A DNA stretch of 24,395 nt from positions 1 through 24,395 of IMG/VR virus record IMGVR_UViG_3300043640_000093. The stretch is one strand, 5' to 3'. Each line of letters starts with the position of its first letter. The first letter of the stretch is position 1. The notes under the pieces are model-generated. The model saw nothing but the letters and a program-made list of their open reading frames with translations, did not search any database and had not been told where the DNA came from. This stretch comes from a virus. The translations under genes and the position numbers were made by a program. Shown piece by piece: positions 7,184 through 22,392 of this stretch.

Positions 7184-7909
7184 AAACCGATCACGCTTAC
7201 TGTCGAGGTAGGACAGCGCATTGATCGTCTGGTTGTCATTGACCCGGACATCCGCGTTCCCGGAAATGCCCGCGGCGCACGGCTGCGCTGCGACTGCGGG
7301 AAGGTCTGCGAAATACGGATAGCCAACCTGCTGCGAAACGGACGGGTTAAGCCAGCCTCGTGTGGCTGCCTGACCGGCAGGCCAAGAGCACTGGCCGTGT
7401 CTGCCGGTCAGAGGATCGGCCGCGGCGTCGTGATCGACCCGGACATACGGACCGGCTTCACCCGGTCACACCCGGGCGGCCGCCCGGGTGCCAAGCTGCG
7501 CTGCGACTGCGGAACGGTCTACGAGGCCGCGCTGATGTCCCTGATGGAACGGGACGGCCACATCAACACGCAATCGTGTGGCTGCCTGCATGAAGAGCAG
7601 GCTCCCCTGAACGGCCAGCTAGGCAGCACAACCCATGGGCTGCATAGTCATCAGCTCTACGGAACCTGGCGGCAGATGCTGCAGCGCTGCGAGAACCCGG
7701 ACGTTGATTCCTACCGCTACTACGGCGCCAAGGGCCGGTCTGTCTGTGACCGCTGGCATGACATCACGGCATTCATCGCGGACATTGAGCGCGATCTTGG
7801 CCCCCGGCCCGAAGGCATGACGCTTGACCGGATGAACAACCAGGGGAACTACGAGCCCGGGAACGTCCGCTGGGCGACTGCCGCCGAGCAGGTAGCGAAC
7901 CGCGGCTAG
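7181..7909 (+). CDS. HNH-like homing endonuclease candidate with two zinc modules
   Basis: A 242-aa plus-strand protein, ATG at 7181, without a strong ribosome site. Residues about 8-65 and 73-140 are two copies of one module: GQRIxRxVVIDPDIR, then GARLRCDCG or GAKLRCDCG, then CGCL, each likely binding zinc through CxC and CxC. Residues about 153-242 match a widespread phage domain with YGTWRQMLQRCENP, YRYYGAKGRSVCDRW and LDRMNNQGNYEPGNVRW, often annotated as HNH endonuclease. A His expected in classic HNH metal sites is Arg in the LDR motif, so activity is not certain. It sits between the tail chaperone and tape measure genes, opposite to them, as a free-standing mobile gene would. Its stop overlaps the chaperone stop. 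Confidence 0.7.
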   Translation: MKPITLTVEVGQRIDRLVVIDPDIRVPGNARGARLRCDCGKVCEIRIANLLRNGRVKPASCGCLTGRPRALAVSAGQRIGRGVVIDPDIRTGFTRSHPGGRPGAKLRCDCGTVYEAALMSLMERDGHINTQSCGCLHEEQAPLNGQLGSTTHGLHSHQLYGTWRQMLQRCENPDVDSYRYYGAKGRSVCDRWHDITAFIADIERDLGPRPEGMTLDRMNNQGNYEPGNVRWATAAEQVANRG

Positions 7910-8842: not shown

Positions 8843-8870
8843 TTGACAATGTGGTATTACCGCATACAGT
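8843..8870 (+). promoter_or_regulatory. Promoter of the lipoprotein/RHH moron
   Basis: A perfect -35 box TTGACA lies at 8843-8848. TACAGT at 8865-8870 is a plausible -10 (4 of 6 matches to TATAAT) after a 16-base spacer. The lipoprotein ATG lies at 8914, giving a leader of roughly 35 bases. A consensus -35 is rare in this GC-rich window and it faces away from the late operon, so expression independent of the late genes is likely. Confidence 0.65.
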
Positions 8871-8913: not shown

Positions 8914-9474
8914 ATGAAGCGCACCAGGATCACCGTAGGCCTCATACTCACCGCCGCCGCGGCACTCGCCGCCGCAGGCTGCGCCACCACCGGCCACCCC
9001 ACATCCGCCGCCACCGCCCCCGCCGCCGCAGCCACGTCAGCCGCGCCAGCCACCACCCCCGCGGCCACACCCAGCGGCCCGGCGCAGTTCGGACGCGCCC
9101 ACGGCTGGACCTACAGCGACGACCTGCAAGTCGCCGTCGTCTCCGCCACCACGACCGCCGTCGGCCAGTACGCGGGAGGCGGCCACCCCGGCGACCCCGC
9201 CGTGATCCTCAAGGTCCGCGTCACCGCCGGCAAAACCAGCCTCGACGCCAGCGAGATCCAGGTTGACGCCAACGCCGGGCCCGACGGCAGCCAGCTCGAA
9301 GCCGTGTTCGACACCGGCATCGATAACCCGTCCGGCACCCTCACCCCGGGCCAGCACGGCACGTACCTGTTCGAGTTCGACGCGCAGCACTCCAGCTGGG
9401 AAAGCCAGCTGAACGTGACCGTCACCCCCGGGTTCGACTACAACGCCGCCAGTTTCACCGGGGCCGCGTCGTGA
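8914..9474 (+). CDS. Secreted lipoprotein (moron cargo)
   Basis: A 186-aa protein, ATG at 8914 after GAGAAGAGA. Residues 1-22 are a lipoprotein signal peptide: basic MKRTR, a hydrophobic segment, and AAGC with the lipidated Cys23; the residue at -3 is Ala rather than the usual Leu. Residues 24-60 are an Ala/Thr/Pro-rich linker. Residues about 65-180 form a beta-rich domain with VAVVSATTT, VILKVRVTAG and YLFEFDAQ, resembling extracellular immunoglobulin-like DUF4352-type domains of actinobacterial lipoproteins. It would be anchored on the outer face of the host membrane. Membrane lipoproteins encoded by prophages often block superinfection or change the host surface; that role is inferred. It is co-transcribed with the next gene. 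Confidence 0.75.
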   Translation: MKRTRITVGLILTAAAALAAAGCATTGHPTSAATAPAAAATSAAPATTPAATPSGPAQFGRAHGWTYSDDLQVAVVSATTTAVGQYAGGGHPGDPAVILKVRVTAGKTSLDASEIQVDANAGPDGSQLEAVFDTGIDNPSGTLTPGQHGTYLFEFDAQHSSWESQLNVTVTPGFDYNAASFTGAAS

Positions 9475-9652: not shown

Positions 9653-10078
9653 TTAGGTGTTGAGACCACCTGACAGAGGGTTATACCTCTGTATTTTACT
9701 GGCAGCATTCCATGTCGATTTGAAATTGACGGGACCGCCAATTGCACCGTCAGCAGAAAAGTCCGGAAGAATTGTTCCGAACCAATAAAGATTAGGATCT
9801 GCTGTAATGTTTGGATAAAGGTAGAACGAGCGGGCCAGGCCGTCCACGGCGGCGATATAGGTCTGGCTGGTGGCGTCGTCGAGGAAGCCGCCGAAATCGC
9901 CGCTCGCGTCGGGCAGCCCCGCCACGTACGTCGTGTTCCCGTCGCCGAACGCCGTCACATCGGACTTGTTGGTGACCATATTGATGGTCCAACTCGCCTG
10001 GAACGGCAGCGGTGACGCCGCGGCACCAGCCGCTATCCCACAGTACACCTGGCCATTCCGGCCATGAATCCGAGACAC
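9653..10078 (-). CDS. Major tail protein (tail tube)
   Basis: A 141-aa protein. The GTG at 10078 has AAGGAG 8 bases upstream, which excludes the longer upstream reading. The sequence has the tail-tube pattern of actinophages: SWTINMVTNKSDVTAFGDGN, then TYVAGLPDASGDFGGFLDD, YIAAVDGLARSFYLYP, YWFGTILPDFSADG and GPVNFKSTWNAAS. It polymerises into the tube around the tape measure. The C-terminal third (about 9653-9830) is clearly richer in A+T than the rest of the gene and the window, and includes the terminator of the opposing moron. That suggests a recent recombination joint inside the gene. The gene follows the glycosyltransferase at 10092 on the same strand. Confidence 0.88.
   Translation of the reverse strand: MSRIHGRNGQVYCGIAAGAAASPLPFQASWTINMVTNKSDVTAFGDGNTTYVAGLPDASGDFGGFLDDATSQTYIAAVDGLARSFYLYPNITADPNLYWFGTILPDFSADGAIGGPVNFKSTWNAASKIQRYNPLSGGLNT
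9673..9698 (+). terminator. Rho-independent terminator of the moron
   Basis: ACAGAGG (9673-9679) pairs with CCTCTGT (9686-9692) across a 6-base loop and is followed by ATTTTA on the plus strand only. It lies 38 bases after the RHH stop, so it would end plus-strand transcription before it runs antisense through the major tail gene. On the minus strand the stem is followed by CAGG, so it should not stop the late operon. It overlaps the last codons of the major tail gene. Confidence 0.6.
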
Positions 10079-10091
10079 AGTTACCGCTCCT

Positions 10092-11150
10092 TCACTTGAT
10101 CCTGACTGGCTGCCGGTCGAGCAACCGGAGCAATGACCTGGCGTTGGCTTCGAACGTCCGCCCGGCGACAGCCTCACGGGCCGCGGCGGCGCACATCTCC
10201 CGCTGGTCCGGGTGCGCCACGTACCAGCGGATCAGTTCCCCTGCCTGCTGCGGCGTGGTGAACGAGGGCAGCATCGGGAACAGCTCATCCGACTCGGGCC
10301 GCGGGTCCCGGGCGAAGAACAGGCCGCAGGCGGCCATCTCGATTTCCCGCGGGCCGCACGCGACGCCCTCGCCCGCGTGGGCTTCCTCGCCCTCGCGGCG
10401 ATAGAAGTTGATGCCGCACCGGGACCGGCGGTAAATGGCCGCCGTGTCGGCGTTGTCTACGCAGTCGTCGTCGCGGGTGGTCGTCCAGTCCCGCAGCGGC
10501 GAGTCGGCGGGCAGCTGCATCCACATGCCGGCGAGCTTCACCGCCAGCCCGTCCAGGCCCATCTCCTCGAAGAACCGGATCCGGGACGGGAACCCGGTCC
10601 CGATGAACGACAGGTCCCACTCCGGCTCGGTGCCGGGCGCTGGCGGGTGATGGATGGCCGGGCGGTAGCTATGCGGCATGTACTCCGCGGGCCCGAACTC
10701 GCGGTAGGCGGCGATGCCGGACGGGTCGTTCAGCAGGTTCACGTCGGCGTGCGCGGCCCGGACCAGCTGCTCGTCGTCCTGGTATGGGCTCTCGGTGTGC
10801 AGCAGGACGATCTTGTGGCCGCGGCCGCGCATCATGTCCAGCAGGTAGGGGGGGGTGAAGAACGCCGAGACCAGCAGGACCACGTCGGGCCAGCACTGGT
10901 ACGCGGCGCCCAGGATGCCGTACGCGGCCTGCTCGACCGCCCGCTCGCGGGACATCGCCTTGCGGACCGCGGGACGGCCCTCGGAGTCTTTCTGTTCCAT
11001 CTCGACCAGGGCGGTGTCGTAGAACTGGAGCCGCTTGTCCAGGTTGAACGTGAACACCTGCTCGCCGAGGGCACGCAGTGCCTCGGCCCAGCCTTCGTAG
11101 ACGTCGTGGACGCTGAAGTTCGGGCCGGGGTGGGCGATGAGCCAGCGCAT
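10092..11150 (-). CDS. CgeB-like glycosyltransferase
   Basis: A 352-aa protein, ATG at 11150 overlapping the tail terminator stop by one base (TAATG). It resembles CgeB-type, GT-B fold glycosyltransferases: an N-terminal Rossmann-like half starting MRWLIAHPGPNFSV, a HTESPYQDDEQ motif at 118-128, SFIGTGFPSRIRFFEEMG at 181-198, and a C-terminal nucleotide-sugar half with EIEMAACGLFFARD at 269-282 and GRTFEANARSLL at 330-341. It would transfer a sugar from a nucleotide donor to a protein or glycan in the cytoplasm. Its place between the tail terminator and the major tail gene suggests a tail protein as acceptor, which is inference. Two more glycosyltransferases lie further upstream. Confidence 0.8.
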   Translation of the reverse strand: MRWLIAHPGPNFSVHDVYEGWAEALRALGEQVFTFNLDKRLQFYDTALVEMEQKDSEGRPAVRKAMSRERAVEQAAYGILGAAYQCWPDVVLLVSAFFTPPYLLDMMRGRGHKIVLLHTESPYQDDEQLVRAAHADVNLLNDPSGIAAYREFGPAEYMPHSYRPAIHHPPAPGTEPEWDLSFIGTGFPSRIRFFEEMGLDGLAVKLAGMWMQLPADSPLRDWTTTRDDDCVDNADTAAIYRRSRCGINFYRREGEEAHAGEGVACGPREIEMAACGLFFARDPRPESDELFPMLPSFTTPQQAGELIRWYVAHPDQREMCAAAAREAVAGRTFEANARSLLRLLDRQPVRIK

Positions 11151-11576: not shown

Positions 11577-11732
11577 TCATGACGACGCCAGCCACGCCAG
11601 GCCGCGCAGCGCCCGGCCCAGGGCCTCATCCCACACGTGGCGGGAGCCGCCGGTGATCCGCACACCGGGGAAACGGTCGTCGCGGACCTCCCACGCCCAC
11701 AGCCCGTGATCCTTCCAGACCCGCGCCTTCAT
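11577..11732 (-). CDS. 51-aa small protein, translationally coupled
   Basis: A 51-aa reading frame whose ATG (11732) overlaps the stop of the C39-like gene as ATGA; it ends 10 bases before the tail terminator ATG. It fills what would otherwise be a gap. The sequence has three parts: MKARVWKDHGLWAWEV, RDDRFPGVRITGGSRHV, and an amphipathic end, EALGRALRGLAWLAS. It is rich in Trp and Arg and has no cysteine or membrane segment. The exact overlaps on both sides and the sensible composition support that it is translated. Function is unknown; a small neck or assembly factor is possible. Confidence 0.6.
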   Translation of the reverse strand: MKARVWKDHGLWAWEVRDDRFPGVRITGGSRHVWDEALGRALRGLAWLASS

Positions 11733-12382
11733 GAGCCTTGCCGCCCTTCCCATCCGACCGTCCAGGCTTCCTCGAGCACTACGTCAGGGAACGCGGACAC
11801 CGGCCACGCCTGCCCCCAGCTGACCCACTCGCTGCCGGTGTCCAGCACCGCGTGCGGGCCGGGCAGGTCCACGCCGAGGATCAGCCCGGCCCCGCCAGCG
11901 ATCAGGGACCGTGCGTCATCGGGCATCACCTTCTCGAAGCTGACCGGCCGGGTACCGGCTAGCCCGAACTCGGCGGCGGCTTCCAGCGTCGCCAGGATGG
12001 ACGCCCCGGCGTCTAGGTCCCGGGTGGTGCGCAGGTACAGGGCCAGGACGTCAGCGTCGGACACCGGCCAGCCTGACAGCCGCAGCGACGCGGCGAGAGC
12101 TTCCGCTGAGCAGCACGCCACCGCCGAGCCCAGGGCCAGCTGGCGGCGCGGGTGAGCCTTCGCCTTCTTCGCGTTCGCCGCCCGCGTCTTGCTCGCCTTC
12201 ACCGCCGCCGCGTGCCGGGCCCGGTGGACCGCCCGGGACACCTTCGCGGGTTTCGCCTTGGCTTTCGCCTGGTGCTTCCCGGCGGCTGGCGGGGCCTTCG
12301 CGGTCGCGGTGCCCTTGCCGCCGCCCCCAGCACCACCGCCGCTGCCGCCCTTGACGGGGGCCTTCGGCGCGGGCTTCTTCAC
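11729..12382 (-). CDS. C39-peptidase-like protein with basic Lys/Ala tail
   Basis: A 217-aa protein, GTG at 12382 overlapping the connector stop (GTGA). Residues 1-82 are a highly basic, low-complexity tail of Lys, Ala, Gly and Pro. Residues about 83-212 look like a papain-like C39 fold: ACCSAEALAASL with Cys90/Cys91 at the start of a helix, SILATLEAAAEFGL, and LILGVDLPGPHAVLDTG with His177 on a strand, then WVSWG. Cys and His are in the order expected for a cysteine peptidase; an Asp or Asn third member cannot be fixed by eye. It may cut a virion protein, or be an inactive structural fold. The basic tail could bind DNA or an acidic partner. Confidence 0.55.
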   Translation of the reverse strand: MKKPAPKAPVKGGSGGGAGGGGKGTATAKAPPAAGKHQAKAKAKPAKVSRAVHRARHAAAVKASKTRAANAKKAKAHPRRQLALGSAVACCSAEALAASLRLSGWPVSDADVLALYLRTTRDLDAGASILATLEAAAEFGLAGTRPVSFEKVMPDDARSLIAGGAGLILGVDLPGPHAVLDTGSEWVSWGQAWPVSAFPDVVLEEAWTVGWEGRQGS

Positions 12383-13298: not shown

Positions 13299-15041
13299 CT
13301 ATCCGTCGCTGGCCGATGGGGTGCTGCTGGCCGCCGGGGTGACGCTGCTGGTGCCGTCCCGCGGGTCTGTGACGGCAGCGCCATGAGCAGCGCCGGTGAC
13401 CGCCGGGGTGAGGACGGCCATGGGTGCGACGGCTGGCGCTGAGGTGCTGCCCGCGGTGACAGTGGCCGTGCTGGCCGCGTTGACGATCGGCGGCGTGCCC
13501 TGGCCGGTCGCGGTGACCGCGCCTGCGGCGGTGAGGACAGCCCCGGCGCGCTGGGTGACGACCGCGGACACGGCTCCGGCACCGGCGAGGGACGCGGTCC
13601 CGGTGGCCGTTCCGCCGCCCGCGCTCCCCGCGGCGGTGAGCGAACCGACCCCGGCGAGGGACGCGGTGACGGCCTGGGCAGCGACTGCGGCCAGCGCGCC
13701 CGCGCCCGTCAGCGTGCCGCCAGCGGCCTGGGCAGCTTTCGCGGTGACCGCACCCGCACCGGCCAGGGCAGCACCCGCAGCCTGGGTGGCTGCGGCGGTA
13801 ACAGTCCCGGCACCAGCAGGAGCCGCTACGGCCGCCTGCGTGGCGAGTGCCGTGACCGCGCCAGCACCAGCGACAGCGGCGGTGCCGGACGACAGCCCGG
13901 ACACCGTCCCCGCGGCGGTGACCACACCCGCCCCGGCCAGGGTGGCCGTAGCGGACTGTGTGGCTACGGCGGTAACCGTCCCCGCAGCGGCGGGGGCCGC
14001 GGCAGCGATCTGCGTGGCTACCGCAGTGACCGACCCTGCGCCCGCCAGTGACGCCGTGGCAGCCTGGGTGGCCGTAGCGGTGACCGCGGCCGCGCCAGTG
14101 AGAGGTGCCCCGGCGATCTGGGTGGCTACCGCTGTCACGGTGCCCGCGGCCGTCAGGGACGCACCTGCGGCCTGGGTGGCGGCCGCAGCGACCGCACCAG
14201 CCCCGGCGGCCGCCGCGCCGGTCGAGTCGATGATGACCCCGCCGGCCGGGATGTCCCCGGACGGCGGCGCGTAGAACGGCGTCCCGCCCGGCATTCCCGG
14301 CAGGCCCTGCCCCGGATGCCAGCCGGGGGCTAGCGGCAGGAGCGGCGGCATGTCCGGGGCGGCTACGGACGCCGGGCCGAGGTAGCCCGTGGTGGACGCC
14401 CCGAAGTCATCGAGCCACAGCGGCCCCACCGCTGAGGCTGGCGAGTTCGAGATACCCCAGCCGATGCTGCCGACCGACGCGCCCGTGTTCTGCAGCGCCG
14501 TGGACGTCTGGGTTTCCAGGACCGACGGGTCGTCCAGGCCGTTGAACAGCTTGAACTCAAGCTGCCCCACCGTGGCCGAGGCGAGGAGGAAACCCTCGAC
14601 CCGGAACCACTGGTTAAGCGGGTAGGTGTTCGCAGACGTCAGGATCGTGGTCGATCCCGAGTTCTGCATGATGATCTTCTGGGCGGTGTTGGTGAGCACC
14701 GCCCCGCAGAGCGTCCCGGCCGACGTGGTGTTCCAGAACGTCACGACCCGGTTATTCGCAGCGGGCTGCGCCGTGACGTACAGGTAGATGCGGAACCAGA
14801 CCTGCGGCTGGCCAGCGCCGAGCGACGTCCCCCAGTAGCCGAAGCTGAACGTGGCCGCGGCGGATGAGCACTGGAGACTTAGGCCGCCGTGCGCGGCGTG
14901 GGCGCTGTCGGACGCCAGGACTGAGCCAGCGCCGATCGACACCGTGTCGAGGGCGTTCCCGGATACGCCGCCAGAGTTGGCGTTGCTGATCGTGGTGCCG
15001 CTGGGAGTGACGCCTTCGAGACTGTTGAGCAGGACAGGCAC
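13299..15041 (-). CDS. LamG-like appendage protein with 13 Ala/Thr-rich repeats
   Basis: A 580-aa protein, GTG at 15041 with GAGAGGCGGG upstream. Residues about 1-225 form a concanavalin/LamG-like beta-sandwich: TVSIGAGSVLASDSAHAAHG, FGYWGTSLGAGQPQVWFRIY, QWFRVEGFLL, and WLDDFGAS. A Pro/Gly-rich hinge follows at 230-270. Residues 278-513 are thirteen repeats of about 18 aa, with the pattern LAGAGxVTAxATQxAxAx. The C-terminus is Ser/Thr/Ala-rich and lacks a membrane anchor. It is likely a capsid-associated fibre or decoration that binds sugars or cell surface. Its long Ser/Thr-rich stretch makes it a good candidate acceptor for the nearby glycosyltransferases. Confidence 0.7.
   Translation of the reverse strand: MPVLLNSLEGVTPSGTTISNANSGGVSGNALDTVSIGAGSVLASDSAHAAHGGLSLQCSSAAATFSFGYWGTSLGAGQPQVWFRIYLYVTAQPAANNRVVTFWNTTSAGTLCGAVLTNTAQKIIMQNSGSTTILTSANTYPLNQWFRVEGFLLASATVGQLEFKLFNGLDDPSVLETQTSTALQNTGASVGSIGWGISNSPASAVGPLWLDDFGASTTGYLGPASVAAPDMPPLLPLAPGWHPGQGLPGMPGGTPFYAPPSGDIPAGGVIIDSTGAAAAGAGAVAAAATQAAGASLTAAGTVTAVATQIAGAPLTGAAAVTATATQAATASLAGAGSVTAVATQIAAAAPAAAGTVTAVATQSATATLAGAGVVTAAGTVSGLSSGTAAVAGAGAVTALATQAAVAAPAGAGTVTAAATQAAGAALAGAGAVTAKAAQAAGGTLTGAGALAAVAAQAVTASLAGVGSLTAAGSAGGGTATGTASLAGAGAVSAVVTQRAGAVLTAAGAVTATGQGTPPIVNAASTATVTAGSTSAPAVAPMAVLTPAVTGAAHGAAVTDPRDGTSSVTPAASSTPSASDG
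13503..14210 (-). repeat. Thirteen tandem 54-bp repeats
   Basis: This segment encodes residues 278-513 of the LamG-like protein. The unit is 18 codons, for example LTAAGTVTAVATQIAGAP, LAGAGSVTAVATQIAAAA and PAGAGTVTAAATQAAGAA. Two copies carry insertions of 4-5 codons (ending SGLSSGTAA and GGGTATGTAS). Copies have diverged, mostly among Ala, Thr, Val and Ser. The count comes from reading by eye. Such arrays usually change in copy number by recombination. Confidence 0.75.
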
Positions 15042-15073
15042 GGGCCACCCGCCTCTCGGTCAGGCCGGGAGGG

Positions 15074-15661
15074 TCACCCGAGCAGCTCGCACGTCAGCTC
15101 GTCGCAGGTGATGGTGGCCAGGGCCGTGGTCACGTTCGGGAAGATGCCGACCGAGATCATCTGCCCCTGGTTCGTGTTACCGCCGCCCGCCACCTGGGTC
15201 GCGGTGCGCAGCGCCAGGGTGATCGGCAGCGCGAACGGCACGGCGAACGCGGTGATAGCCGACGCCTGGTAGAACTTGCCCTGGCCGAAATACACAGCGG
15301 TACCGGCGACCGAGGTGGACAGGGCCCGGACATGGCCGTCCCACTCCAGCGTCCACGGCCACGACGCCGAGCCCGTGTTGGCGACCGTGACGGCCCCCGT
15401 GGCCGCCAGCTGCAGCGACGTCCCGGCGACCAGCGACGTCCCGGCGTTGGACAGGTAGAAGCCCCACGTCGGGGTCGCGGTGGCCGCCGATGAGACGTAG
15501 GAGCCGGTCGCGCGCAGCCGGATGCGGGTGCCCAGGTTCAGCGTGAACGGCGGGATCACCACCTCCGCCGGGGAGTAGTCCGTCAGCGCGGCGGCGACAG
15601 CAGCGGAGTTGCTGACGATCCCCATGTTCTCCATGGGGGCGGACCACAGCGTCGATGGCAT
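15074..15661 (-). CDS. Beta-sandwich structural protein
   Basis: A 195-aa protein, ATG at 15661, 9 bases after the preceding stop; ribosome site weak. It is beta-rich: FTLNLGTRIRLRATGSY at 39-55, TWGFYLSNAGTSLVAGTSL, WPWTLEWDGHVRALST, TAVYFGQGKFYQ, and a closing TTALATITCDELTCEL. The strand pattern is the same kind as in the tail-tip protein at 1045-1767, and resembles the small jelly-roll proteins that cap phage fibres or decorate heads. It lies between the phage-fibre-like gene at 15671 and the LamG-like gene at 13299, so a head-appendage role is likely. No enzyme motif is visible. Confidence 0.65.
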   Translation of the reverse strand: MPSTLWSAPMENMGIVSNSAAVAAALTDYSPAEVVIPPFTLNLGTRIRLRATGSYVSSAATATPTWGFYLSNAGTSLVAGTSLQLAATGAVTVANTGSASWPWTLEWDGHVRALSTSVAGTAVYFGQGKFYQASAITAFAVPFALPITLALRTATQVAGGGNTNQGQMISVGIFPNVTTALATITCDELTCELLG

Positions 15662-15670
15662 GTCAGCGGC

Positions 15671-16117
15671 TCACGTCAGCGAGATCTGGATACCGGCGGC
15701 GGCACCGGACCCGCCGACGATCTGGAACGTGTTGCCGTTGGCGACGTTGACCGGCTGCCCGTTGAACGGCCCCCACCATGCCCGCACCGCCGCCGAGCTG
15801 GTCAGGTCCAGGCTGACGACCGCGGTCGGTGATCCCGATGAGACGAACGACTGGGTGATGAACGGGACGCCCACCGCGCTGCCCGCCGACGACGCGGTAG
15901 ACGCCGTGGTGCCCAGCGTGAAACCGCCCGCCGTGTAACCGGAGGTCTGCGTGCCGATATCCGTGCCCGCCGCGGAAGCCGTGGACAGGGTCGAGTTCAG
16001 CCGCAGCTTCATCGCCGACGCGGCCAGGGCCGTGAACGCCCCGGGGATGCCCGCCGCGCCCGTCGGCGTCGTCGCGTTCAGGATGTTAGAGATCATCGTG
16101 TTGTCGATGGCCGCCAT
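15671..16117 (-). CDS. Phage fibre-like structural protein
   Basis: A 148-aa protein, ATG at 16117 with AGGAG 7 bases upstream, overlapping the previous stop by one base (TAATG). It begins NTMISNILNATTPTGAAG and has GTDIGTQTSGYTAGGFTLGT in the middle and a closing FQIVGGSGAAAGIQISLT. This pattern (start helix with NxxLN, then a GTEVSGGYARQ-like strand) is seen in a widespread family of phage head or tail fibre components. It is Ser/Thr/Ala-rich, so it could be a glycan acceptor. Exact location in the virion is unknown. Confidence 0.65.
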   Translation of the reverse strand: MAAIDNTMISNILNATTPTGAAGIPGAFTALAASAMKLRLNSTLSTASAAGTDIGTQTSGYTAGGFTLGTTASTASSAGSAVGVPFITQSFVSSGSPTAVVSLDLTSSAAVRAWWGPFNGQPVNVANGNTFQIVGGSGAAAGIQISLT

Positions 16118-16316: not shown

Positions 16317-16526
16317 CTACTGCTTCTTCGCCGCGGTGCGCTTCTCGGCCGTGTCCGGCGCGGGCCGGGTCTCCGCCTTGCGCTCGGCCGCGACCGGCTG
16401 CGCCCATCCGGCCGCGCACACCGCCGCGCCTTCCTCGTCGTCCACGTCGATCTCGCCGCCGAGCGGGGGCCACATCCGGCCGTCGTGGCGCGGGCCGGTC
16501 CGTTCCTCGAGCATCCGGATCTTCAC
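16317..16526 (-). CDS. Small charged hypothetical protein
   Basis: A 69-aa protein, GTG at 16526, overlapping the glycosyltransferase stop as GTGA, with GGAGGT 6 bases upstream. The N-terminal half has MKIRMLEERTGPRHDGRMWP and the acidic EIDVDDEEGAAVCAAGWAQP; this ordered part is similar in style to small phage proteins with a beta-strand plus acidic turn. The C-terminal 25 residues are Lys/Ala/Glu-rich and probably disordered. The excellent ribosome site and the coupling support translation. No function can be assigned. Confidence 0.65.
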   Translation of the reverse strand: MKIRMLEERTGPRHDGRMWPPLGGEIDVDDEEGAAVCAAGWAQPVAAERKAETRPAPDTAEKRTAAKKQ

Positions 16527-17521
16527 AGCAGACCTCCATAGGCGGATTCCCAGAGCTTCCAGCCCTGCTCGATCGTGTGCGCCCGGGCGTGCTCGCGGGC
16601 CTTCGCGCCCATGCTTTCCCGCAGTTCAGTATCGGAAGCCAGCTCCGACATGTACTTAAGCCACTCGTGGTCGCGCTTCACCAGAAACCCGGTCACCCCG
16701 TGCAGGATGAAGTCCCGGTATGGCTCCGAGTCGGTCGCGATCACCGGGATGCCGCGGGCCGCGTACTCCAGTGCCTTGATCGCGCTCTTCGACCGGGCGA
16801 ACTTCGTCAGCACCAGCGGCGCCAGCCCGATGTCCAGGTCAACCGACTGGTAGTACGCCTCCGGGTCGGCGACCACATGCGACCACGGGCTGAACGTGAC
16901 CCGCGGGTGGCGGACCGTGGGCCGGTAGTCCACGCCGCCCAGGTGCCCGTCCCAGCCAGGGAAACGGTTCAGGAACCGCCGCAGCGGCGCGGCGATCACG
17001 CCGATGTCCCGGCCGTGGGACGCGCCGCCCATCCACCCGCACCGGGGCCGCGGCCTGGGCTCCCGCGGCAGGTCGCACACCCAGCCGGGGATGAAGTTCG
17101 GCAGGACCGCCACGTGCGGGTTGTGCTCCCGCATCACTTCCGCGAGCGGCTCGGTGGTGACGGTGACCAGGTTCGCGACCTGCGCCGAGTGCGCCACCGC
17201 GTCCTGCGCGTCGGCGCGGGAGTACCGGGTGTAGGCGGCCCAGTTGACCGGCTCGACGGCCTGGACGTCGTCGTCCACCTCGTAGACCAGTTTCGAGTGA
17301 GCGGCCATCCGCCGCCAGCCGCCCATCCCGGCGTGGGAATCCCACCGCTGCGCGACGACGATGTCCTGCCCGGTGACCTGGCTGACGGTGACACCCGGCC
17401 CGGCGGACTGGTCGGCACCGGCGAGGGTCACGTCGTGGCCGTGGCGGCCGAGTTCCTGCAAGGGCAGGATCACGCGGTACCAGGCGCAGCCTGAGCCGTC
17501 GTGCCCGGCGAAGACCTTCAC
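16523..17521 (-). CDS. GT4-like glycosyltransferase
   Basis: A 332-aa protein, GTG at 17521 overlapping the 60-aa gene (GTGA). It has the GT-B plan of family 4: an N-terminal acceptor half starting MKVFAGHDGSGCAWYRVILP, with LVYEVDDDVQ at 78-87, a LPNFIP linker at 140-145, and a C-terminal donor half with RCGWMGGASHGRD at 160-172, DIGLAPL at 230-236, and SKSAIKALEYAARGIPVIA at 244-262, followed by TGFLV. The latter matches the region that binds the nucleotide sugar in this family. It should add a hexose or similar sugar in the cytoplasm. It is the last gene of the sugar block before the fibre-like proteins. Confidence 0.85.
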   Translation of the reverse strand: MKVFAGHDGSGCAWYRVILPLQELGRHGHDVTLAGADQSAGPGVTVSQVTGQDIVVAQRWDSHAGMGGWRRMAAHSKLVYEVDDDVQAVEPVNWAAYTRYSRADAQDAVAHSAQVANLVTVTTEPLAEVMREHNPHVAVLPNFIPGWVCDLPREPRPRPRCGWMGGASHGRDIGVIAAPLRRFLNRFPGWDGHLGGVDYRPTVRHPRVTFSPWSHVVADPEAYYQSVDLDIGLAPLVLTKFARSKSAIKALEYAARGIPVIATDSEPYRDFILHGVTGFLVKRDHEWLKYMSELASDTELRESMGAKAREHARAHTIEQGWKLWESAYGGLL

Positions 17522-17700
17522 TTGCCGTCGCTGGCCTTCCCCGCCGCCTGGTGGACGGGCCCGTTGACGGCCTCGCCGGACATGTGTGACGCGGTAGTGC
17601 CCGACTTCGCGGTGGCCAGCAGCCGGGTCAGCTTGTCCGCCAGCTCCCGCTCATCCTCCGCGGTCGCGCACTGCCCGGCGGCGGTCAGGGTCCACGCCAT
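17518..17700 (-). CDS. 60-aa protein inside the sugar block
   Basis: A 60-aa protein, ATG at 17700 with GAGGAG 7 bases upstream; a longer upstream reading is rejected because it overlaps the GT2 gene. It reads MAWTLTAAGQCATAEDEREL, ADKLTRLLATAKSGTTASHM, then SGEAVNGPVHQAAGKASDGK. The centre is a helix and the tail is flexible. Its stop overlaps the GT4-like start, so the two are coupled. Small proteins with a similar start occur among actinophage capsid-region genes. It could be a decoration protein that is itself glycosylated, but nothing in the sequence proves that. Confidence 0.65.
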   Translation of the reverse strand: MAWTLTAAGQCATAEDERELADKLTRLLATAKSGTTASHMSGEAVNGPVHQAAGKASDGK

Positions 17701-17710
17701 GACGTGCTCC

Positions 17711-18349
17711 TCAGCCGTTGAAGTAGTAGTCGGCGGTGATCTCGCCGTCGAAGACCCACGTGGCCCCGGCGGACATCCAGCGGGCCACCAGGTCCCAGTC
17801 CACGGTCTCCTGCCACCCGTCATCCCGCCACGTGGCCGTTTCCAGCAGGCCGCGGCGGTGCATGATCGCGGACGTGTCGATCCCGCCGCAGAACGGCGGG
17901 TCAGCGCCGACTGCGTACGGCGGCCCGTGGCCGTTCATCAGGATCAGGCTGTACGCGAACCCGGCGCCCGGGTCGGCTTCCAGTGCCGCGACCAGGCGGG
18001 CGACGTGACCGGGGCGGAACGCGTTGTCGTCGTCCAGGTAGGCGATGTAATCGCCCTTGGCCAGCTCCAGGCCACGGAGCCGGGCGCGGTGACCCCACCG
18101 GGCTGCCGGGTCATGCTCCGGCATTTCGCGGAACTGCACGTCATGCATGGGTCGCGGTTCCCCGTCGAGGACGCGCTGCCGCCATTCGCGGATCACGGCC
18201 GCCAGTTCCGGGTCCGGCCCATCGGAGATCACGACATGCTCGACGTTGCCGTAAGTCTGCGCCTGCACCGACGGGACGCACCGGTTCAGCAGCAGGTCAT
18301 GCCGCCGCCACGACGGGGTTATGACACTGACGAGCGGCTGGTCAGCCAT
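17711..18349 (-). CDS. GT2 family glycosyltransferase
   Basis: A 212-aa protein. I choose the ATG at 18349, which places VSVITPSWRRHDLLLNRCV, the canonical GT-A start, at residues 7-25; the gene then overlaps the epimerase end by 31 bases. Residues 99-109 read GDYIAYLDDDN, with the DDD/DXD metal and nucleotide-sugar site at Asp106-108. WQETVDWDLVARWMSAGATW at 179-198 fits the conserved ED-like acceptor region. At 212 aa it is close to a minimal GT-A domain, with no membrane helix. It should be a cytoplasmic enzyme that transfers one sugar, perhaps directly to a virion protein. Confidence 0.87.
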   Translation of the reverse strand: MADQPLVSVITPSWRRHDLLLNRCVPSVQAQTYGNVEHVVISDGPDPELAAVIREWRQRVLDGEPRPMHDVQFREMPEHDPAARWGHRARLRGLELAKGDYIAYLDDDNAFRPGHVARLVAALEADPGAGFAYSLILMNGHGPPYAVGADPPFCGGIDTSAIMHRRGLLETATWRDDGWQETVDWDLVARWMSAGATWVFDGEITADYYFNG

Positions 18350-19188
18350 TCCCGGTACCAGGCGATCGTCTCGGGGACCAGGTAGGGCCAGGGGTTGCGG
18401 CACACCGGGGACGCGGCGACCACTTCGGCGAAGCCTGGTTCACCGGGGCGGGGCGCGACTCCGACCAGCGCCCACGGCACCAGCGCCCACGGCATCGTGC
18501 GGCCGGCTGCCCTGGCGATATCCTCGGCCACCTGGGCGACACTGACGGGCTTCCCGCACCCGGCCTCGGTTACTGTGCCGTACGGGCCGTCTATCGCGTC
18601 AGCGAGCGCCACAGCGACGTCTGAGACGTGTACGGGGTCGATGAGCTGGCCGCCGCCGCCGCACAGTTCCAGCGGCAGGCCTTCCAGCGCGTTGCAGGCG
18701 AACGTGGGGAAGAACTTGTGCACCTTCGCCGGGCCGTGCGGCGGTCCCGGGATCTGGCCCGGGCCGTACACGTGGTAGGCGCGGACCACGGTGATCTTCT
18801 CGCCCAGCCAGCGGGCCCGCGCCAGGCCCAAGTCCTCCGCGCACGCCTTCGTGATCGCGTACGGGTTCGGCTGCCCCTTGTGGCCGGTGCCGATCTGCAC
18901 CACCGGCACCCCCCCGTACCGCTTCGCCGCGTCGTAGATGTTCACCGCGCCCAGGATGTTCGTCTCGGCGGCCTGGCGCTCGGCGCCGAGCAGCTCGGGG
19001 GTGCCGAGCATCCCGGCCAGGTTGACCACGGCGCCGATGTCGCGGCCGAACAGGGCCCGCTCCACGTCGGCCACGGAGCGGATGTCCTGCGGCTGATCGA
19101 ACGGGATGACCACGTGGCCGCGCTGGCACAACTCAGCGCGCAGGTGACGGCCGATGAACCCCGACGAGCCGGTGACCAGAACTTTCAC
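18319..19188 (-). CDS. NAD-dependent sugar epimerase/dehydratase
   Basis: A 289-aa extended SDR protein, GTG at 19188 overlapping the methyltransferase stop (GTGA). MKVLVTGSSGFIGRHLRAEL at 1-20 is the NAD-binding TGxxGFIG Rossmann start. VVNLAGMLG at 54-62 fits the second conserved part, and PYAITK at 109-114 gives the catalytic YxxxK (Tyr110, Lys114). VRAYHVYGPGQ and LIDPVHVSDVAVAL follow as in nucleotide-sugar epimerases. It likely makes or alters an NDP-sugar for the neighbouring glycosyltransferases. The exact sugar cannot be read from sequence. At 289 aa it is slightly shorter than the usual 310-340. Confidence 0.87.
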   Translation of the reverse strand: MKVLVTGSSGFIGRHLRAELCQRGHVVIPFDQPQDIRSVADVERALFGRDIGAVVNLAGMLGTPELLGAERQAAETNILGAVNIYDAAKRYGGVPVVQIGTGHKGQPNPYAITKACAEDLGLARARWLGEKITVVRAYHVYGPGQIPGPPHGPAKVHKFFPTFACNALEGLPLELCGGGGQLIDPVHVSDVAVALADAIDGPYGTVTEAGCGKPVSVAQVAEDIARAAGRTMPWALVPWALVGVAPRPGEPGFAEVVAASPVCRNPWPYLVPETIAWYREWLTSRSSVS

Positions 19189-19718
19189 GTCTTCACCACG
19201 AACAGGGACCCCGTCAGCTCATCCGGCCCGGCGGGGAACGCCTCACCGAGGGCCTGGCGGACACCGGGACAGCAGCAGTCCTCCCCGTAGTCATGCACGG
19301 CCAGCACCCCGCCCGGGCGGAGGATCTTCAGCGCGCCCGCCACGTCCGAGCGGACTGCGGCGTACGAGTGGTCGCCGTCGATGAACACCAGCCCGAACCG
19401 GCTCCCCTCCGCCGCGAACATGCTCATCGCCGACAGGGAAGACTCCACCAGGATCGCGACGCCGGTGACGCCGTACGCGGCGAGGTTGCGTTCCATCCCG
19501 GCCAGCGAATCGGGAACCCAGGTGTGCGGGTCCACGGCGGCCACCCGGGCACCGGCGAGGGCCATGACGATCGCGCTGTACCCGAACGCCGACCCGATCT
19601 CCAGCACGTCACCGGCGGACGCGGCCAGCCCGGCCAGGGCGGCGGCTTCCTCCGGCGTGATGGACGTGGAGATGGCCGGGCCGTCACCGGCTGCGACGTC
19701 ACGCCAGGGCAGGTGCAC
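19185..19718 (-). CDS. Class I SAM-dependent methyltransferase
   Basis: A 177-aa protein. The GTG at 19718 is the first start after the preceding stop (19720-19722); a longer upstream reading overlaps that gene fully and is rejected. VLEIGSAFGYSA at 38-49 is motif I (SAM binding), VAAVDPH at 59-65 gives the acidic residue for the ribose, and VFIDGDHSYAAVRSDV at 111-126 with GGVLAVHDYG at 136-145 match the Methyltransf_24 type found with sugar genes. A CCC triplet at 148-150 is unusual. It is the first gene of the sugar block and probably methylates the sugar, as in the O-methylated glycans of some actinophage virions; that substrate is inferred. Confidence 0.85.
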   Translation of the reverse strand: MHLPWRDVAAGDGPAISTSITPEEAAALAGLAASAGDVLEIGSAFGYSAIVMALAGARVAAVDPHTWVPDSLAGMERNLAAYGVTGVAILVESSLSAMSMFAAEGSRFGLVFIDGDHSYAAVRSDVAGALKILRPGGVLAVHDYGEDCCCPGVRQALGEAFPAGPDELTGSLFVVKT

Positions 19719-19719
19719 G

Positions 19720-19899
19720 CTAGGTCTGCCGCCAGGGACTGTCCGACGGCCAGTCGCCGGACACCTTCCCGGACATGTCACACGGCCCCGACGACAGCTT
19801 CACCCACTCGCCGAGCATGGAACCGTCCGGTGCGGCCGCGTCGTACGGCTGGCCGGGCTGGTCCGGCGCCGAGGTGACCGGCTCAGGTGCGGTAGCCAT
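19720..19899 (-). CDS. Small hypothetical protein
   Basis: A 59-aa protein. The ATG at 19899 has GAGGAG 6 bases upstream; a TTG at 19920 would lie before that site and is less likely. It is acidic and Pro/Ser-rich: ATAPEPVTSAPDQPGQPYDA, AAPDGSMLGEWVKLSSGPCD, then MSGKVSGDWPSDSPWRQT. It overlaps the end of the preceding 59-aa gene by 17 bases. It lies immediately before the methyltransferase, with a gap of one base. No fold or function is recognisable. Confidence 0.6.
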   Translation of the reverse strand: MATAPEPVTSAPDQPGQPYDAAAPDGSMLGEWVKLSSGPCDMSGKVSGDWPSDSPWRQT

Positions 19900-20062
19900 C
19901 ACTTGCTCCTCGTGTCTCAACGGGCGCGGGCTCCGGTTCCCCGGGATGCCCGCGCGCCTCAGCCATCTCCGCGGCCTTCGCCTTCGCCTGCAGGGAAACC
20001 CTCACCTGCTCCGGCACCGGAGCCGCGGCCTGCTCGTCCGCACCTGGCTCCTGCGCAGCCAT
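19883..20062 (-). CDS. 59-aa small protein, Ala/Glu/Pro-rich
   Basis: A 59-aa reading frame with ATG at 20062, overlapping the stop of the preceding gene by one base (TGATG). It reads MAAQEPGADEQAAAPVPEQV, then a helix RVSLQAKAKAAEMAEARG, then a Pro-rich end. Its stop at 19883-19885 falls inside the next gene. It fills an otherwise empty interval of about 160 bases in a tightly packed operon. It is likely disordered at both ends with a short central helix. No function is assigned. Confidence 0.55.
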   Translation of the reverse strand: MAAQEPGADEQAAAPVPEQVRVSLQAKAKAAEMAEARGHPGEPEPAPVETRGASDGYRT

Positions 20063-20310
20063 CAGTCCATCGCCTTCCAGGTCACGGGAACCGGCTGGTA
20101 CGCCATGGGCAGCCGCGACGGGGCGGTGCCCACCGGCAGCGTGGCGCTGGCCTGCACGGCCGGGTCGCCCTGGTGCTCACGGTCCGGGAGCGGGTCCGAC
20201 GGCTGGCTGCCCGGCGCCGTCATCGCCTGCTCATTGCTGGACACCATGTTCCCGCCGGCCTGCGACGTGGCCCACGGGCCGAACCTGGCCTGCCCTGACA
20301 GATCCTGCAT
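20062..20310 (-). CDS. Small hypothetical protein
   Basis: An 82-aa protein, ATG at 20310 shortly after the preceding stop, with GGAAGGAG about 12 bases upstream, a longer spacing than usual. It has QARFGPWATSQAGGNMVSSN, a Pro/Ser/Glu-rich centre, and QPVPVTWKAMD at the C-terminus. There are no cysteines or hydrophobic segments. It belongs to the run of small low-complexity proteins between the capsid and the sugar block; perhaps these are capsid-associated. No family recognised. Confidence 0.6.
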   Translation of the reverse strand: MQDLSGQARFGPWATSQAGGNMVSSNEQAMTAPGSQPSDPLPDREHQGDPAVQASATLPVGTAPSRLPMAYQPVPVTWKAMD

Positions 20311-20312
20311 CG

Positions 20313-20846
20313 CTAGCTCACGCTCCTTCCGCCCCGCATAACCCGGCCCTGCCCGGACCCGGTCGACGTCGGCTCGTTCCCCATGATCCCGGGCAACTGC
20401 GGGCCGCCGCCCGCGTACGACCCGTCAATCGCCTGCGTCCAGTCACCAGGGCCGGAGATGCTGTCACTCACCGTGTCCTGCACGTAAGTGCCGGTCAGGT
20501 ACGCCCCGGGCCGGGTGTAGTGGATGCTGTCGGGACCGCCGCCGTTGCTGTTCTGCGCGCCCTGGCTGCCCGGCGCGCCGGTGCTGGCGGTCTGCGACGG
20601 GCCCTCACCGGAGATCCCCTCGGTCAGCTGCCCCGGCTGGTTCGTCGGGTCGGCGGCGCCGGACGCGCCCTCTGTGCCCGGCGCGCCGGTGCCCGGCGGG
20701 AGGGCCACGCCGAACAGGGAATCCGGGTACTGGCCCGGCTCGTTCGTCGTGTCCGACTGGGCGCTCGTGCCGGAGAACGCGCCGGTCTCCCGCGTCCCGG
20801 ACACGGGGCCATAACCCGGGGTGGTACCCGGAGTGAGGTTCGCCAT
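20313..20846 (-). CDS. Gly/Ser/Thr/Pro-rich low-complexity protein
   Basis: A 177-aa protein, ATG at 20846, five bases after the preceding stop; an in-frame longer reading runs through the zinc-finger gene and is rejected. GGAAAGG lies about 9 bases upstream. The sequence is disordered and has repeated phrases such as TNEPGQYPDSLFGVALPPGT and PTNQPGQLTEGISGEGPSQT, which look like imperfect internal repeats around NxPGQ. It ends with GQGRVMRGGRSVS. It is highly hydrophilic and rich in Ser/Thr, so it is a possible glycan acceptor on the capsid. Function otherwise unknown. Confidence 0.65.
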   Translation of the reverse strand: MANLTPGTTPGYGPVSGTRETGAFSGTSAQSDTTNEPGQYPDSLFGVALPPGTGAPGTEGASGAADPTNQPGQLTEGISGEGPSQTASTGAPGSQGAQNSNGGGPDSIHYTRPGAYLTGTYVQDTVSDSISGPGDWTQAIDGSYAGGGPQLPGIMGNEPTSTGSGQGRVMRGGRSVS

Positions 20847-21120: not shown

Positions 21121-22392
21121 CTAGGTCGCCGCGGCCTTGAACAGCTTGATCGCGTTCGTGTCCACCAGCGTCCCGTCACCGCGGAGCAGGCAGCGGAACG
21201 TCACCAGGTCCGTGCCGAACGCGAAGTCATCGCTGCGCTCGAACCGCACCCCGCCGACCAGCCGGACGAAGAACTGGCTGAAGTCACCGAACGCCACGTC
21301 GAACGCGGACGTCACCGCCGCCGGCATGAACGGATCCGCCACGATCGGCTTCCCGAGCAGCAGGTCAGGTGACCCCAGCACCGCCGACGGCTCCCAGATC
21401 GGGCGCCCGTTGCCGTCCACGATCTTGCGGAACCCGCCGATCGTCTTGTCCGCCGCCATCCAGTAGCACGACCGGGACTGGCGGTACGGGGCGATCACGC
21501 TGTACTCGAGGTCCACCAGGTTCGCGTAGGTGGGGATCCCGGCCTGGCCGGTGGTCACCTGCGTCACGCCCGGGGACGCCGACGTGGCGAAGATCAGGCC
21601 GGCGGGCTTGGACGACCCGTTGCCGTTGACCAGGTCGGTGCCGAACGCGTTGCCCACCGCACGGCCGGCCTGCATGGCCAGGTACCCGATCAGGTCCACC
21701 CCGGAGTCATCGATGAGCTCACGGCCGAGCTGCAGCATGATGCCGTACTTGAACGACGTCAGCGTGGCCAGCGCGAACGCCGGGTCAGACGTCGGCAGGG
21801 TCCCCGACTGGGCGGTCAGCGCCGCCGTCGAGTGGCCGGTGGTCTTCGGGATCTGCAGCGTCTCCCCGCCCGCGGTGTTCAGCACCGTCGGCCCGGCCTG
21901 CATGATGCCGGACACCTCGATCAGGTGCGCGATCAATCTGTCGTAGAAGTCGGTCGGCACGACCGACGTGGGGGTGCCGGTGTTGGACAGCAGGGTGCGG
22001 TAGTTCAGCGGGCCGAGGCCCTCGGTGTTGTGCGCCAGCTCGACGGCCTTGGTCTCGCCGCGCAGGAACGCCCGGATCTCCGCGGCGGCGTCCTTGCCGT
22101 TGCTGTCCGCGTAGCCGCCAGCGGTGGCGCCATCTCCCCCGGCGCGGCGCTCGACGGGCTTGCGGCCGATCGCGTCGAACGCGTCGTCTGTGTCCTTCGA
22201 CCGCTTCTCCGCCTTGAGGACACCGCCGATCTGATCATCGACCTTGTCGAGCTCCTCCATGAGCCGCTGCCAGGTGCCCTGCTCATCGGGGGTCATCTCG
22301 CGGTTTTCCTCGGCGGCCGTCTCGACGTAGCCCCGGGCCTCGTTCCACACGTTCAGGCGCCTAGCCTGGAGCCTCTTCGCAACCTCGCTCAC
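21121..22392 (-). CDS. Major capsid protein (HK97 fold)
   Basis: A 423-aa protein, GTG at 22392 with GAAGGGA about 8 bases upstream. Residues 1-75 form a charged coiled coil (AAEENREMTPDEQGTWQRLM), the delta/scaffold part that the protease removes. After an Ala/Gly linker, the mature capsid begins about residue 105 and has VVPTDFYDRLIAHLIEVSGI, QIPKTTGHSTAALTAQSGT, LGRELIDDSGVDLIGYLA, NAFGTDLVNGNGSSKPAGL, and AFGDFSQFFVRLVGGVRFER near the end, all typical of HK97-type capsids. It assembles the icosahedral head. It lies after the prohead protease, with 83 bases between, the largest gap in the right-hand half. Confidence 0.94.
   Translation of the reverse strand: MSEVAKRLQARRLNVWNEARGYVETAAEENREMTPDEQGTWQRLMEELDKVDDQIGGVLKAEKRSKDTDDAFDAIGRKPVERRAGGDGATAGGYADSNGKDAAAEIRAFLRGETKAVELAHNTEGLGPLNYRTLLSNTGTPTSVVPTDFYDRLIAHLIEVSGIMQAGPTVLNTAGGETLQIPKTTGHSTAALTAQSGTLPTSDPAFALATLTSFKYGIMLQLGRELIDDSGVDLIGYLAMQAGRAVGNAFGTDLVNGNGSSKPAGLIFATSASPGVTQVTTGQAGIPTYANLVDLEYSVIAPYRQSRSCYWMAADKTIGGFRKIVDGNGRPIWEPSAVLGSPDLLLGKPIVADPFMPAAVTSAFDVAFGDFSQFFVRLVGGVRFERSDDFAFGTDLVTFRCLLRGDGTLVDTNAIKLFKAAAT

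Follow-up and report, generated by a model that had tools for sequence, protein, structure and literature searches.

A putative virion glycosylation module between the capsid and connector genes of an uncultured actinobacterial siphophage lineage

A cluster of sugar enzymes in the head operon

The window, i.e., the whole 24,395-nucleotide stretch of viral DNA analysed here (IMG/VR record IMGVR_UViG_3300043640_000093), carries five ORFs on its minus strand at 16523-19718, between the capsid and connector genes: an O-methyltransferase (MT, 19185..19718), a short SDR nucleotide-sugar epimerase/reductase (EPI, 18319..19188), a GT-A family 2 glycosyltransferase with a DDD motif (GT2, 17711..18349, start set at an internal ATG), a 60-aa ORF (g60, 17518..17700) and a second glycosyltransferase (GT4, 16523..17521). 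ORF coordinates and Pfam/PHROG matches confirmed the place, strand and tight spacing given in the first-pass annotation: overlaps of 4 bp (MT/EPI), 31 bp (EPI/GT2), 4 bp (g60/GT4) and 4 bp (GT4/next gene), and a gap of 10 bp between GT2 and g60. The portal, S78 protease, HK97-type major capsid protein (21121..22392; PF05065, 1e-56), connector (phrog_442) and tail terminator (phrog_17840) are encoded on the same strand, as are all other features given with coordinates below. Ser/Thr-rich neighbours do exist on both sides of the module, as previously claimed, but they are not directly adjacent, because small genes intervene (g82 and g66 upstream, g69 and g64 downstream). Upstream, a Gly/Ser/Thr/Pro-rich, probably disordered head-gene product (STA, 20313..20846; 23% S+T, 21% G; 64 family members) is conserved in the lineage, and its gene directly adjoins the capsid gene; it is followed by two small conserved proteins, g82 in the capsid-module interval (20062..20310; 48 family members, 99% identity to a sister phage) and g66 immediately before the module (19720..19899; 40 family members, conserved W56-x-Q58). 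Downstream, the small head-region protein g69 (16317..16526; phrog_2616/DUF7302, 3.8e-6 and 1e-4) immediately follows the module, and the Ser/Thr/Ala-rich appendage-like proteins g148, g195 and g580 (22-26% S+T) lie at 13299..16117.

The enzyme classes proposed earlier (methyltransferase, NAD-dependent epimerase, GT2 and GT4-like) agree with Pfam matches and motifs, and the active-site motifs of MT, EPI, GT2 and GT4 are intact. Judged from sequence, MT is a class I SAM O-methyltransferase (PF13578, 5.7e-16), distantly related to MycF-type sugar O-methyltransferases (PDB 4x7v, MycF, 1.2e-4), with catechol-type enzymes also matched; D114 and H117 occur in all 94 family members and D143 in 94%. 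Membership in the TylF/MycF family (PF05711) was rejected, since Pfam gave matches to PF13578, PF01596 and PF13489 only; a true TylF (324 bits) is encoded in the capsid-connector interval of one relative (L191). EPI (PF01370, 5.6e-27; best PDB match MoeE5, 6kv9, 2.9e-14) has an intact SDR site, with Y110-x3-K114 in 100% of 50 family members (motif GTGHKGQPNPYAITK). It lacks the TDE motif, and a 4,6-dehydratase function was therefore rejected for the window copy; RmlB-like enzymes with TDE are present in relatives. GT2 (PF00535, 2.3e-17; D108 in 100% of 89 members) and GT4 (PF00534, 2.3e-10; phrog_7162, 3.6e-50; conserved YEVDDD, GxGG and E-x4-GIP motifs) have the signatures of nucleotide-sugar transferases. 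Conserved catalytic motifs, dN/dS values of 0.21-0.27 for EPI, GT2 and GT4 against the nearest relative, and the many homologues that other viral contigs carry at the equivalent position argue that the module is not a chance assembly.

A tail-linked glycosyltransferase

A second sugar site, absent from the first-pass annotation, lies between the tail terminator and major tail protein genes, where a glycosyltransferase (GTb, 10092..11150; PF13524, 6.7e-14) precedes the major tail (tube) protein (9653..10078; phrog_10528, 1.6e-9). The AlphaFold model of GTb (pLDDT 88.9) has two Rossmann domains in GT-B topology and matched SPS, MshA, BshA and SdgB in Foldseek (E down to 4.5e-11); its predicted fold and sequence place it among GT-B enzymes of the PF13524/GT4-like type, and its C-terminal motif GPREIEMAACG is near-invariant. 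The major tail protein gene follows in 71 of 79 copies and the tail terminator gene precedes in 63 of 79. The family was undetected by tblastn among 50,697 GenBank phage records, and among 84,980 species genomes it occurred on only two contigs, both from actinobacterial MAGs and both with surrounding phage genes, the tail protein adjoining GTb in each. If it does act on the tail, GTb would represent a tail-tube-dedicated transferase family unseen in sequenced isolates. Distances of GTb and of the tail protein covary even after those of connector and terminator are taken into account (partial r 0.29, permutation p 0.002); GTb distances correlate more strongly with those of the tail terminator than with those of the tail protein.

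Variation among relatives

In a neighbourhood search, all 24 non-redundant capsid relatives with at least 5 kb downstream (about 56-91% identical), which share ancestry and are not independent, carried sugar genes in the slot that separates the capsid gene from the connector gene, with more than 20 ordered gene combinations (the automated interval count was 23; in the 24th, L221, the interval ended at an MTP-like ORF, with EPI, GT2 and UGD genes further on). Deoxysugar pathways, including deoxysugar C-methyltransferases and aminotransferases, occupy the slot in some relatives, whereas of 163 genes upstream of the portal only 3 belong to the four sugar-gene families. In other phages the module families take several positions, always within the structural region. 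A search of 297 actinobacterial genomes with GT4 gave hits at E<=1e-40 in only 4, of which one shows the same phage architecture. Taken with the phage-flanked GTb contigs, this does not show the consistent placement of homologues in host cell-surface clusters that would have spoken against the first-pass interpretation. A DNA-level search of phage records with the window gave no match, and no isolate of the lineage was among them.

The closest comparison is with a sister phage of about 90% identity (L003, a 51-kb contig), which retains EPI, GT2 and GT4 and differs in MT and in GTb/tail protein as blocks. Its MT has been replaced (55% identity, versus flanking DNA of about 90%), and GTb and the major tail protein have been replaced together within flanks of about 93%; dS is 0.88 for the tail protein, 0.22 for the tail terminator and 0.15 for the next conserved gene. 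The phage belongs to an uncultured soil-type group in which near-identical viruses swap sugar genes, rather as bacteria exchange surface antigens. The sister encodes a serine integrase and a CI-like repressor, which indicates that the lineage is temperate.

The same comparison removed two parts of the earlier interpretation. The 60-aa protein had been regarded as a substrate or adaptor, but in the sister the GT2 and GT4 genes abut and g60 appears as a clean insertion of about 180 bp; it is therefore not required, and we place it outside the module core. It belongs to no family and has few relatives, none found in phages by tblastn; a related protein (32% identity) is encoded far off in the sister, near the terminase gene. 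The appendages, proposed as natural acceptors, fared no better: the sister, which retains EPI, GT2 and GT4, has no orthologues of g148, g195 and g580, and these are thus ruled out as obligate acceptors.

Comparison with known systems

Virion glycosylation as such is already known from mycobacteriophages, and the window holds a variant arrangement. Capsid glycosylation has been reported for Che8 (PMC12363180), and modification of both capsid and tail tube for the cluster O phages (Corndogvirus; PMC11600133, PMC12363180); a Corndog cryo-EM preprint of 2026 (PMC13252515) does not mention virion glycans. Like these phages, the window combines phage glycosyltransferases with an O-methyltransferase. 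Corndogvirus also has them in the head operon (portal-OMT-GT-GT-GT-protease-capsid), and its O-methyltransferase (Catdawg gp33) matches the MT family (hhalign 96%), but it has no epimerase and lacks a GTb next to its tail tube gene, and none of its three glycosyltransferases, among them the gp38/gp110 type, is matched in the window or the sister. In Che8 (cluster F1), gp108, encoded in the phage's glycosylation cluster, is a GT2-OMT fusion whose halves match the window GT2 and MT families (94% in hhalign for GT2 and the N-terminal domain); the gp108-gp110 genes, however, lie at the right genome end, distant from the head genes, whereas the window module is inside the head operon. The transferase of the Che8 gp110/Corndog gp38 type, described as indispensable for glycosylating the capsid in those phages, has no match in the window, L003, L304 or L305, which excludes the window set from the Che8/Corndog family; the gp109 type is also absent from the window.

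Among GenBank phages the closest capsid relative (32%) is that of Pontimonas phage phiPsal1, in which a group I glycosyltransferase, a SAM methyltransferase and a GT2 lie, independently, between capsid and neck genes, and whose capsid protein ends in Ser; its transferases are only weakly related (hhalign 57-73%), it has no epimerase or GTb, and the phage itself is not discussed in the source paper (PMC6106888). Streptomyces phage Zuko and Microbacterium phage Magritte provide close annotated relatives of GT4 (34%, in Zuko) and EPI (36%), but their SDR and GT pair lies upstream of terminase/portal rather than between capsid and connector, with no MT or GTb in the stretch examined.

Candidate acceptors and proposed function

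The capsid protein ends in Ser or Thr in 34 of 41 non-redundant relatives, which are related by descent and not independent, and in none of 29 module-less phiBT1-like controls; 7 of the 41 lack a terminal Ser/Thr despite the presence of transferases, as do about half of the tail proteins (ending in KVG and similar). Both window proteins end in Thr (capsid ...FKAAAT, tail ...GGLNT), the Che8 and Corndogvirus proteins end in Ser, and glycans have been reported at C-termini (PMC12619734). Tail terminators ending in Thr (36%) were left out of the evidence, because the end of that gene lies over the start codon of the following one. As a candidate acceptor, the Thr/Ser at the capsid protein's C-terminus is better than the 60-aa protein or the appendages, and it offers a concrete acceptor hypothesis.

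We consider it likely that the module and GTb serve to glycosylate the virion of a temperate siphophage of actinobacteria and are produced alongside its head and tail proteins. This is the best reading because the module stays in the structural region across a diverse lineage and because GT2 and MT match the domains of Che8 gp108; the glycosylation proposed in the first-pass annotation is thus well supported, though unproven. EPI would convert a host UDP- or dTDP-sugar, one of the two transferases (GT2 or GT4) would start and the other extend a short O-glycan on capsid subunits, and MT would cap it with a methyl group, while GTb, expressed just before the tail-tube protein, may glycosylate that protein separately. 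Attachment would most likely be at the C-terminus, on the last residue (Thr/Ser) of the capsid protein and, in the window's clade, of the tail tube.

Alternatively, the enzymes might act on the host, altering its cell wall or a polysaccharide on its surface and so preventing superinfection or shifting the host type. Phage transferases that alter host serotype are known (PMC12619734), the sister is temperate, and GT2 is closest in sequence to envelope enzymes, e.g., SpsA and TuaG. Such lysogenic conversion or receptor masking seems unlikely, however, because the module and the co-oriented head genes overlap, GTb stays tied to the tail-tube gene, and family copies in other phages change place only within the structural region. 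The overlap with head genes, together with the failure to find a sigma-70-like promoter on the module strand at 8.8-24.4 kb (a weak test in a GC-rich actinophage), makes late expression likely. Furthermore, EPI, GT2, GT4, MT and GTb have no membrane segment (maximum 19-aa mean hydropathy <=1.62), and the membrane flippase and membrane-bound transferases characteristic of Gtr-type conversion cassettes are not seen among them.

It is improbable that the target of the module is a dedicated appendage of the head (STA, g148, g195 or g580) instead of the capsid/tail-tube lattice: STA, with its composition, conservation and position next to the capsid gene, is a possible acceptor, and the appendages are rich in Ser/Thr, but the latter are replaced in the sister, the branches L046, L047 and L253 carry the module without STA, and the position of GTb beside the tail-tube gene would be left unexplained. 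DNA hypermodification by viral glycosyltransferases has precedent (Pyle et al. 2024, via PMC12619734), but glycosylation of modified bases in the phage DNA is very improbable here, given that the genes lie in the structural operon apart from replication genes, that the same interval in relatives encodes deoxysugar C-methyltransferases and aminotransferases, and that a Pfam scan of 26 non-structural proteins from the possibly incomplete sister contig, small ORFs excluded, detected only a C-5 cytosine methylase and neither a pyrimidine hydroxymethylase nor any other enzyme of base synthesis.

If the virion is indeed glycosylated, the glycan coat would give the particle a different surface for antigen recognition or adsorption, and whole-gene replacement at the locus would change the particle type. 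More tentatively, we suggest a head-operon serotype locus across the uncultured actinophage lineage, in which a fixed capsid-connector slot would hold interchangeable glycan cassettes, the most elaborate being amino- and C-methyl-deoxysugar pathways, whose products are placed on the last Ser/Thr of the capsid protein, GTb, inherited with the tail-tube protein, would decorate the tail, and gene replacement would switch the surface type. If true, exchangeable sugar loci would determine the surface type of phage particles in the way that O-antigen loci do for bacteria, which would point to selection on virion surfaces outside animals (adsorption, competing phages, grazers, matrix binding). The new sugar transferases could also be of use for glycoengineering.

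Layout and integrity of the sugar module

The window is an entire IMG/VR virus record of 24,395 bp. Read along the minus strand, its genes run from a partial portal through the S78 protease, the HK97-type capsid, small genes and the sugar module to the appendage genes, and on through connector and tail terminator to glycosyltransferase GTb, the major tail protein, the tape measure and the distal tail genes; only three ORFs, insertion-like in appearance, lie on the plus strand. The first-pass annotation had proposed a virion glycosylation module within the head operon, and its five ORFs at 16523-19718 were confirmed with the overlaps it had reported. Four encode enzymes with Pfam matches: an O-methyltransferase (MT, 19185-19718; PF13578), an epimerase (EPI, 18319-19188; PF01370) and the glycosyltransferases GT2 (17711-18349; PF00535) and GT4 (16523-17521; PF00534). 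The fifth (17518-17700) encodes 60 amino acids. All four enzymes retain the expected active-site residues in their family alignments: Tyr110 and Lys114 in 50/50 sequences for EPI, Asp108 in 89/89 for GT2, Asp114 and His117 in 94/94 for MT, and many invariant positions across 45/45 for GT4. No membrane segment was found in any module enzyme. Directly 3' of the capsid gene lies a low-complexity Gly/Ser/Thr/Pro-rich product with two DPTNEPGQ-type repeats (20313-20846, minus strand); its family (64 members, no PHROG match) is kept in most of the lineage.

A variable slot between capsid and connector

Viral contigs were queried with five proteins (capsid, EPI, MT, GT4 and GTb), which gave several hundred loci. 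The capsid relatives whose contigs extend 5 kb or more downstream collapse to 24 non-redundant loci, and by automatic count 23 of these carry sugar genes in the capsid-connector interval; in the 24th (L221) the interval was ended early by a tail-protein-like ORF, with sugar genes just past it. That locus has a second major-tail-protein-like gene directly 3' of the capsid gene (L221:5096-5515). Placement of the module is conserved. The sugar-gene set differs in nearly every locus, and beyond the four window families includes deoxysugar C-methyltransferases (PF08484), DegT aminotransferases, cupins, UDP-sugar dehydrogenase, TylF, GNAT and additional GT2 genes. Only 3/163 genes upstream of the portal belong to the four families; copies elsewhere in the structural region include MT-EPI-GT2 before the portal (L067) and copies adjoining GTb and tail genes (L012, L017).

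The capsid-connector interval of some loci also holds an animal-type haem peroxidase domain protein (L172:4993-6576; PF03098, 4.9e-12; family in three loci) and PKD-domain proteins (L191:10362-10796 and five other loci), which are likely surface decorations. A MobA-like nucleotidyltransferase fused to an APH kinase domain lies within another phage sugar locus (L210:15205-16704).

A transferase paired with the tail protein

A further enzyme, absent from the first-pass annotation, is GTb (10092-11150, minus strand), a GT-B glycosyltransferase (PF13524, 6.7e-14) whose gene stops 13 bases short of the one for the major tail protein (phrog_10528). The nearest solved folds to its AlphaFold model (pLDDT 88.9) are GT4-type enzymes, e.g., sucrose-phosphate synthase, MshA and BshA, and the predicted structure also matched the serine-aspartate-repeat transferase SdgB. 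GTb is paired with the tail protein: among 79 copies in viral contigs (near-identical contigs counted), a phrog_10528-type protein follows in 71 and the tail terminator precedes in 63. GTb has no PHROG match and no tblastn homologue among 50,697 GenBank phages; in genomes of 84,980 species it occurs on only two contigs, both phage-like and both with the tail protein adjoining. Between connector and tail terminator, 11729-12382 (minus strand) encodes a protein with a Lys/Ala-rich start and, by eye, a papain/C39-like cysteine peptidase resemblance in its C-terminal part (no Pfam match; relatives in few loci).

Replacement between close relatives

The sister contig 3300043640_000192 (L003, remainder L304/L305) shares 88.8% DNA identity with the window from the portal to the small gene g82. 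EPI, GT2 and GT4 show dN/dS of 0.21-0.27, similar to structural genes. MT is only 55% identical to its counterpart and has been replaced between conserved flanks; GTb (61% identical) was replaced jointly with the major tail protein, whose synonymous distance is 0.88, their flanks remaining at background distance (terminator 0.22, next conserved gene 0.15). The 60-aa ORF is missing from the sister, where GT2 and GT4 abut, and a distant relative (32% identity) lies near the sister terminase gene. The sister also lacks orthologues of g148, g195 and g580, the genes for the Ser/Thr/Ala-rich appendage proteins.

Candidate acceptors and known systems

The transferases might instead glycosylate DNA, which is unlikely, since no base-hypermodification enzyme was found among the 26 sister proteins scanned. 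Virion proteins are the presumed acceptors, and both the sugar and the transferase that would start the glycan are assigned by inference. Phage transferases glycosylate virions of Che8, Corndog and Myrna (PMC12363180), and in Corndogvirus the cluster lies inside the head operon (PMC11600133). By profile comparison each of the two domains of Che8 gp108 has its counterpart in a window family, one in GT2 and the other in MT, and the MT family also corresponds to the Corndogvirus O-methyltransferase. The transferase reported as essential in those systems (Che8 gp110, Corndog gp38) has no match in window or sister, and we therefore rejected membership of that system; the window set probably works like it. 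Of the GenBank phages, phiPsal1 has the capsid protein nearest to that of the window (32%). In the corresponding interval it carries glycosyltransferase and methyltransferase genes of its own, only weakly related to those of the window and not discussed in that phage's paper.

We examined C-termini because PMC12619734, citing Freeman et al. 2023, places glycans at the C-termini of mycobacteriophage capsid and tail-tube subunits. In Che8 and two Corndogvirus members, Ser is the last residue of both the capsid and the tail-tube protein. In the window's lineage 34/41 non-redundant capsid proteins end in Thr/Ser; one residue further in (position -2) the Thr/Ser frequency drops to 32%, and at -3 and -4 it is close to zero; the background for the last residue in other proteins of these loci is 15.5%. 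Terminal Thr/Ser occurs in 0/29 capsid proteins of phiBT1-like phages, which lack sugar genes by these models, and in 9/27 of distant HK97 relatives. The window tail protein ends in Thr too (GGLNT), but roughly half of those encoded next to GTb do not. The terminal residue is a tentative candidate for the glycan site, suggested by correlation among related sequences, which is not proof; a selective benefit of glycosylation is likewise presumed.

Host and lifestyle

The host is presumably actinobacterial, judging from the GC content (70%), sister gene families of actinobacterial type and one Micromonosporaceae MAG contig (MAG binning being fallible) that shares the order portal-protease-capsid-MT-GT2-GT4-g69-connector, g69 being a small head-region gene. 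GT4 relatives occur on three further contigs from actinobacterial genomes; on one of these they apparently lie beside phage tail genes. The phage group is temperate, since the sister encodes a serine integrase, repressor, RecT and YqaJ. An HNH endonuclease gene (7430-7909, plus strand; phrog_374, 4e-43) lies between the tail chaperone region and the tape measure gene. Between the tail tube and the next tail gene lies a plus-strand lipoprotein-like gene (8914-9474) that is 92% conserved in the sister. Its product has a signal peptide with an LAAAGC lipobox and matches DUF6491 weakly (1.2e-4). The gene has its own promoter-like site (TTGACA-16-TACAGT, 8843-8870) and looks like a prophage-expressed moron.
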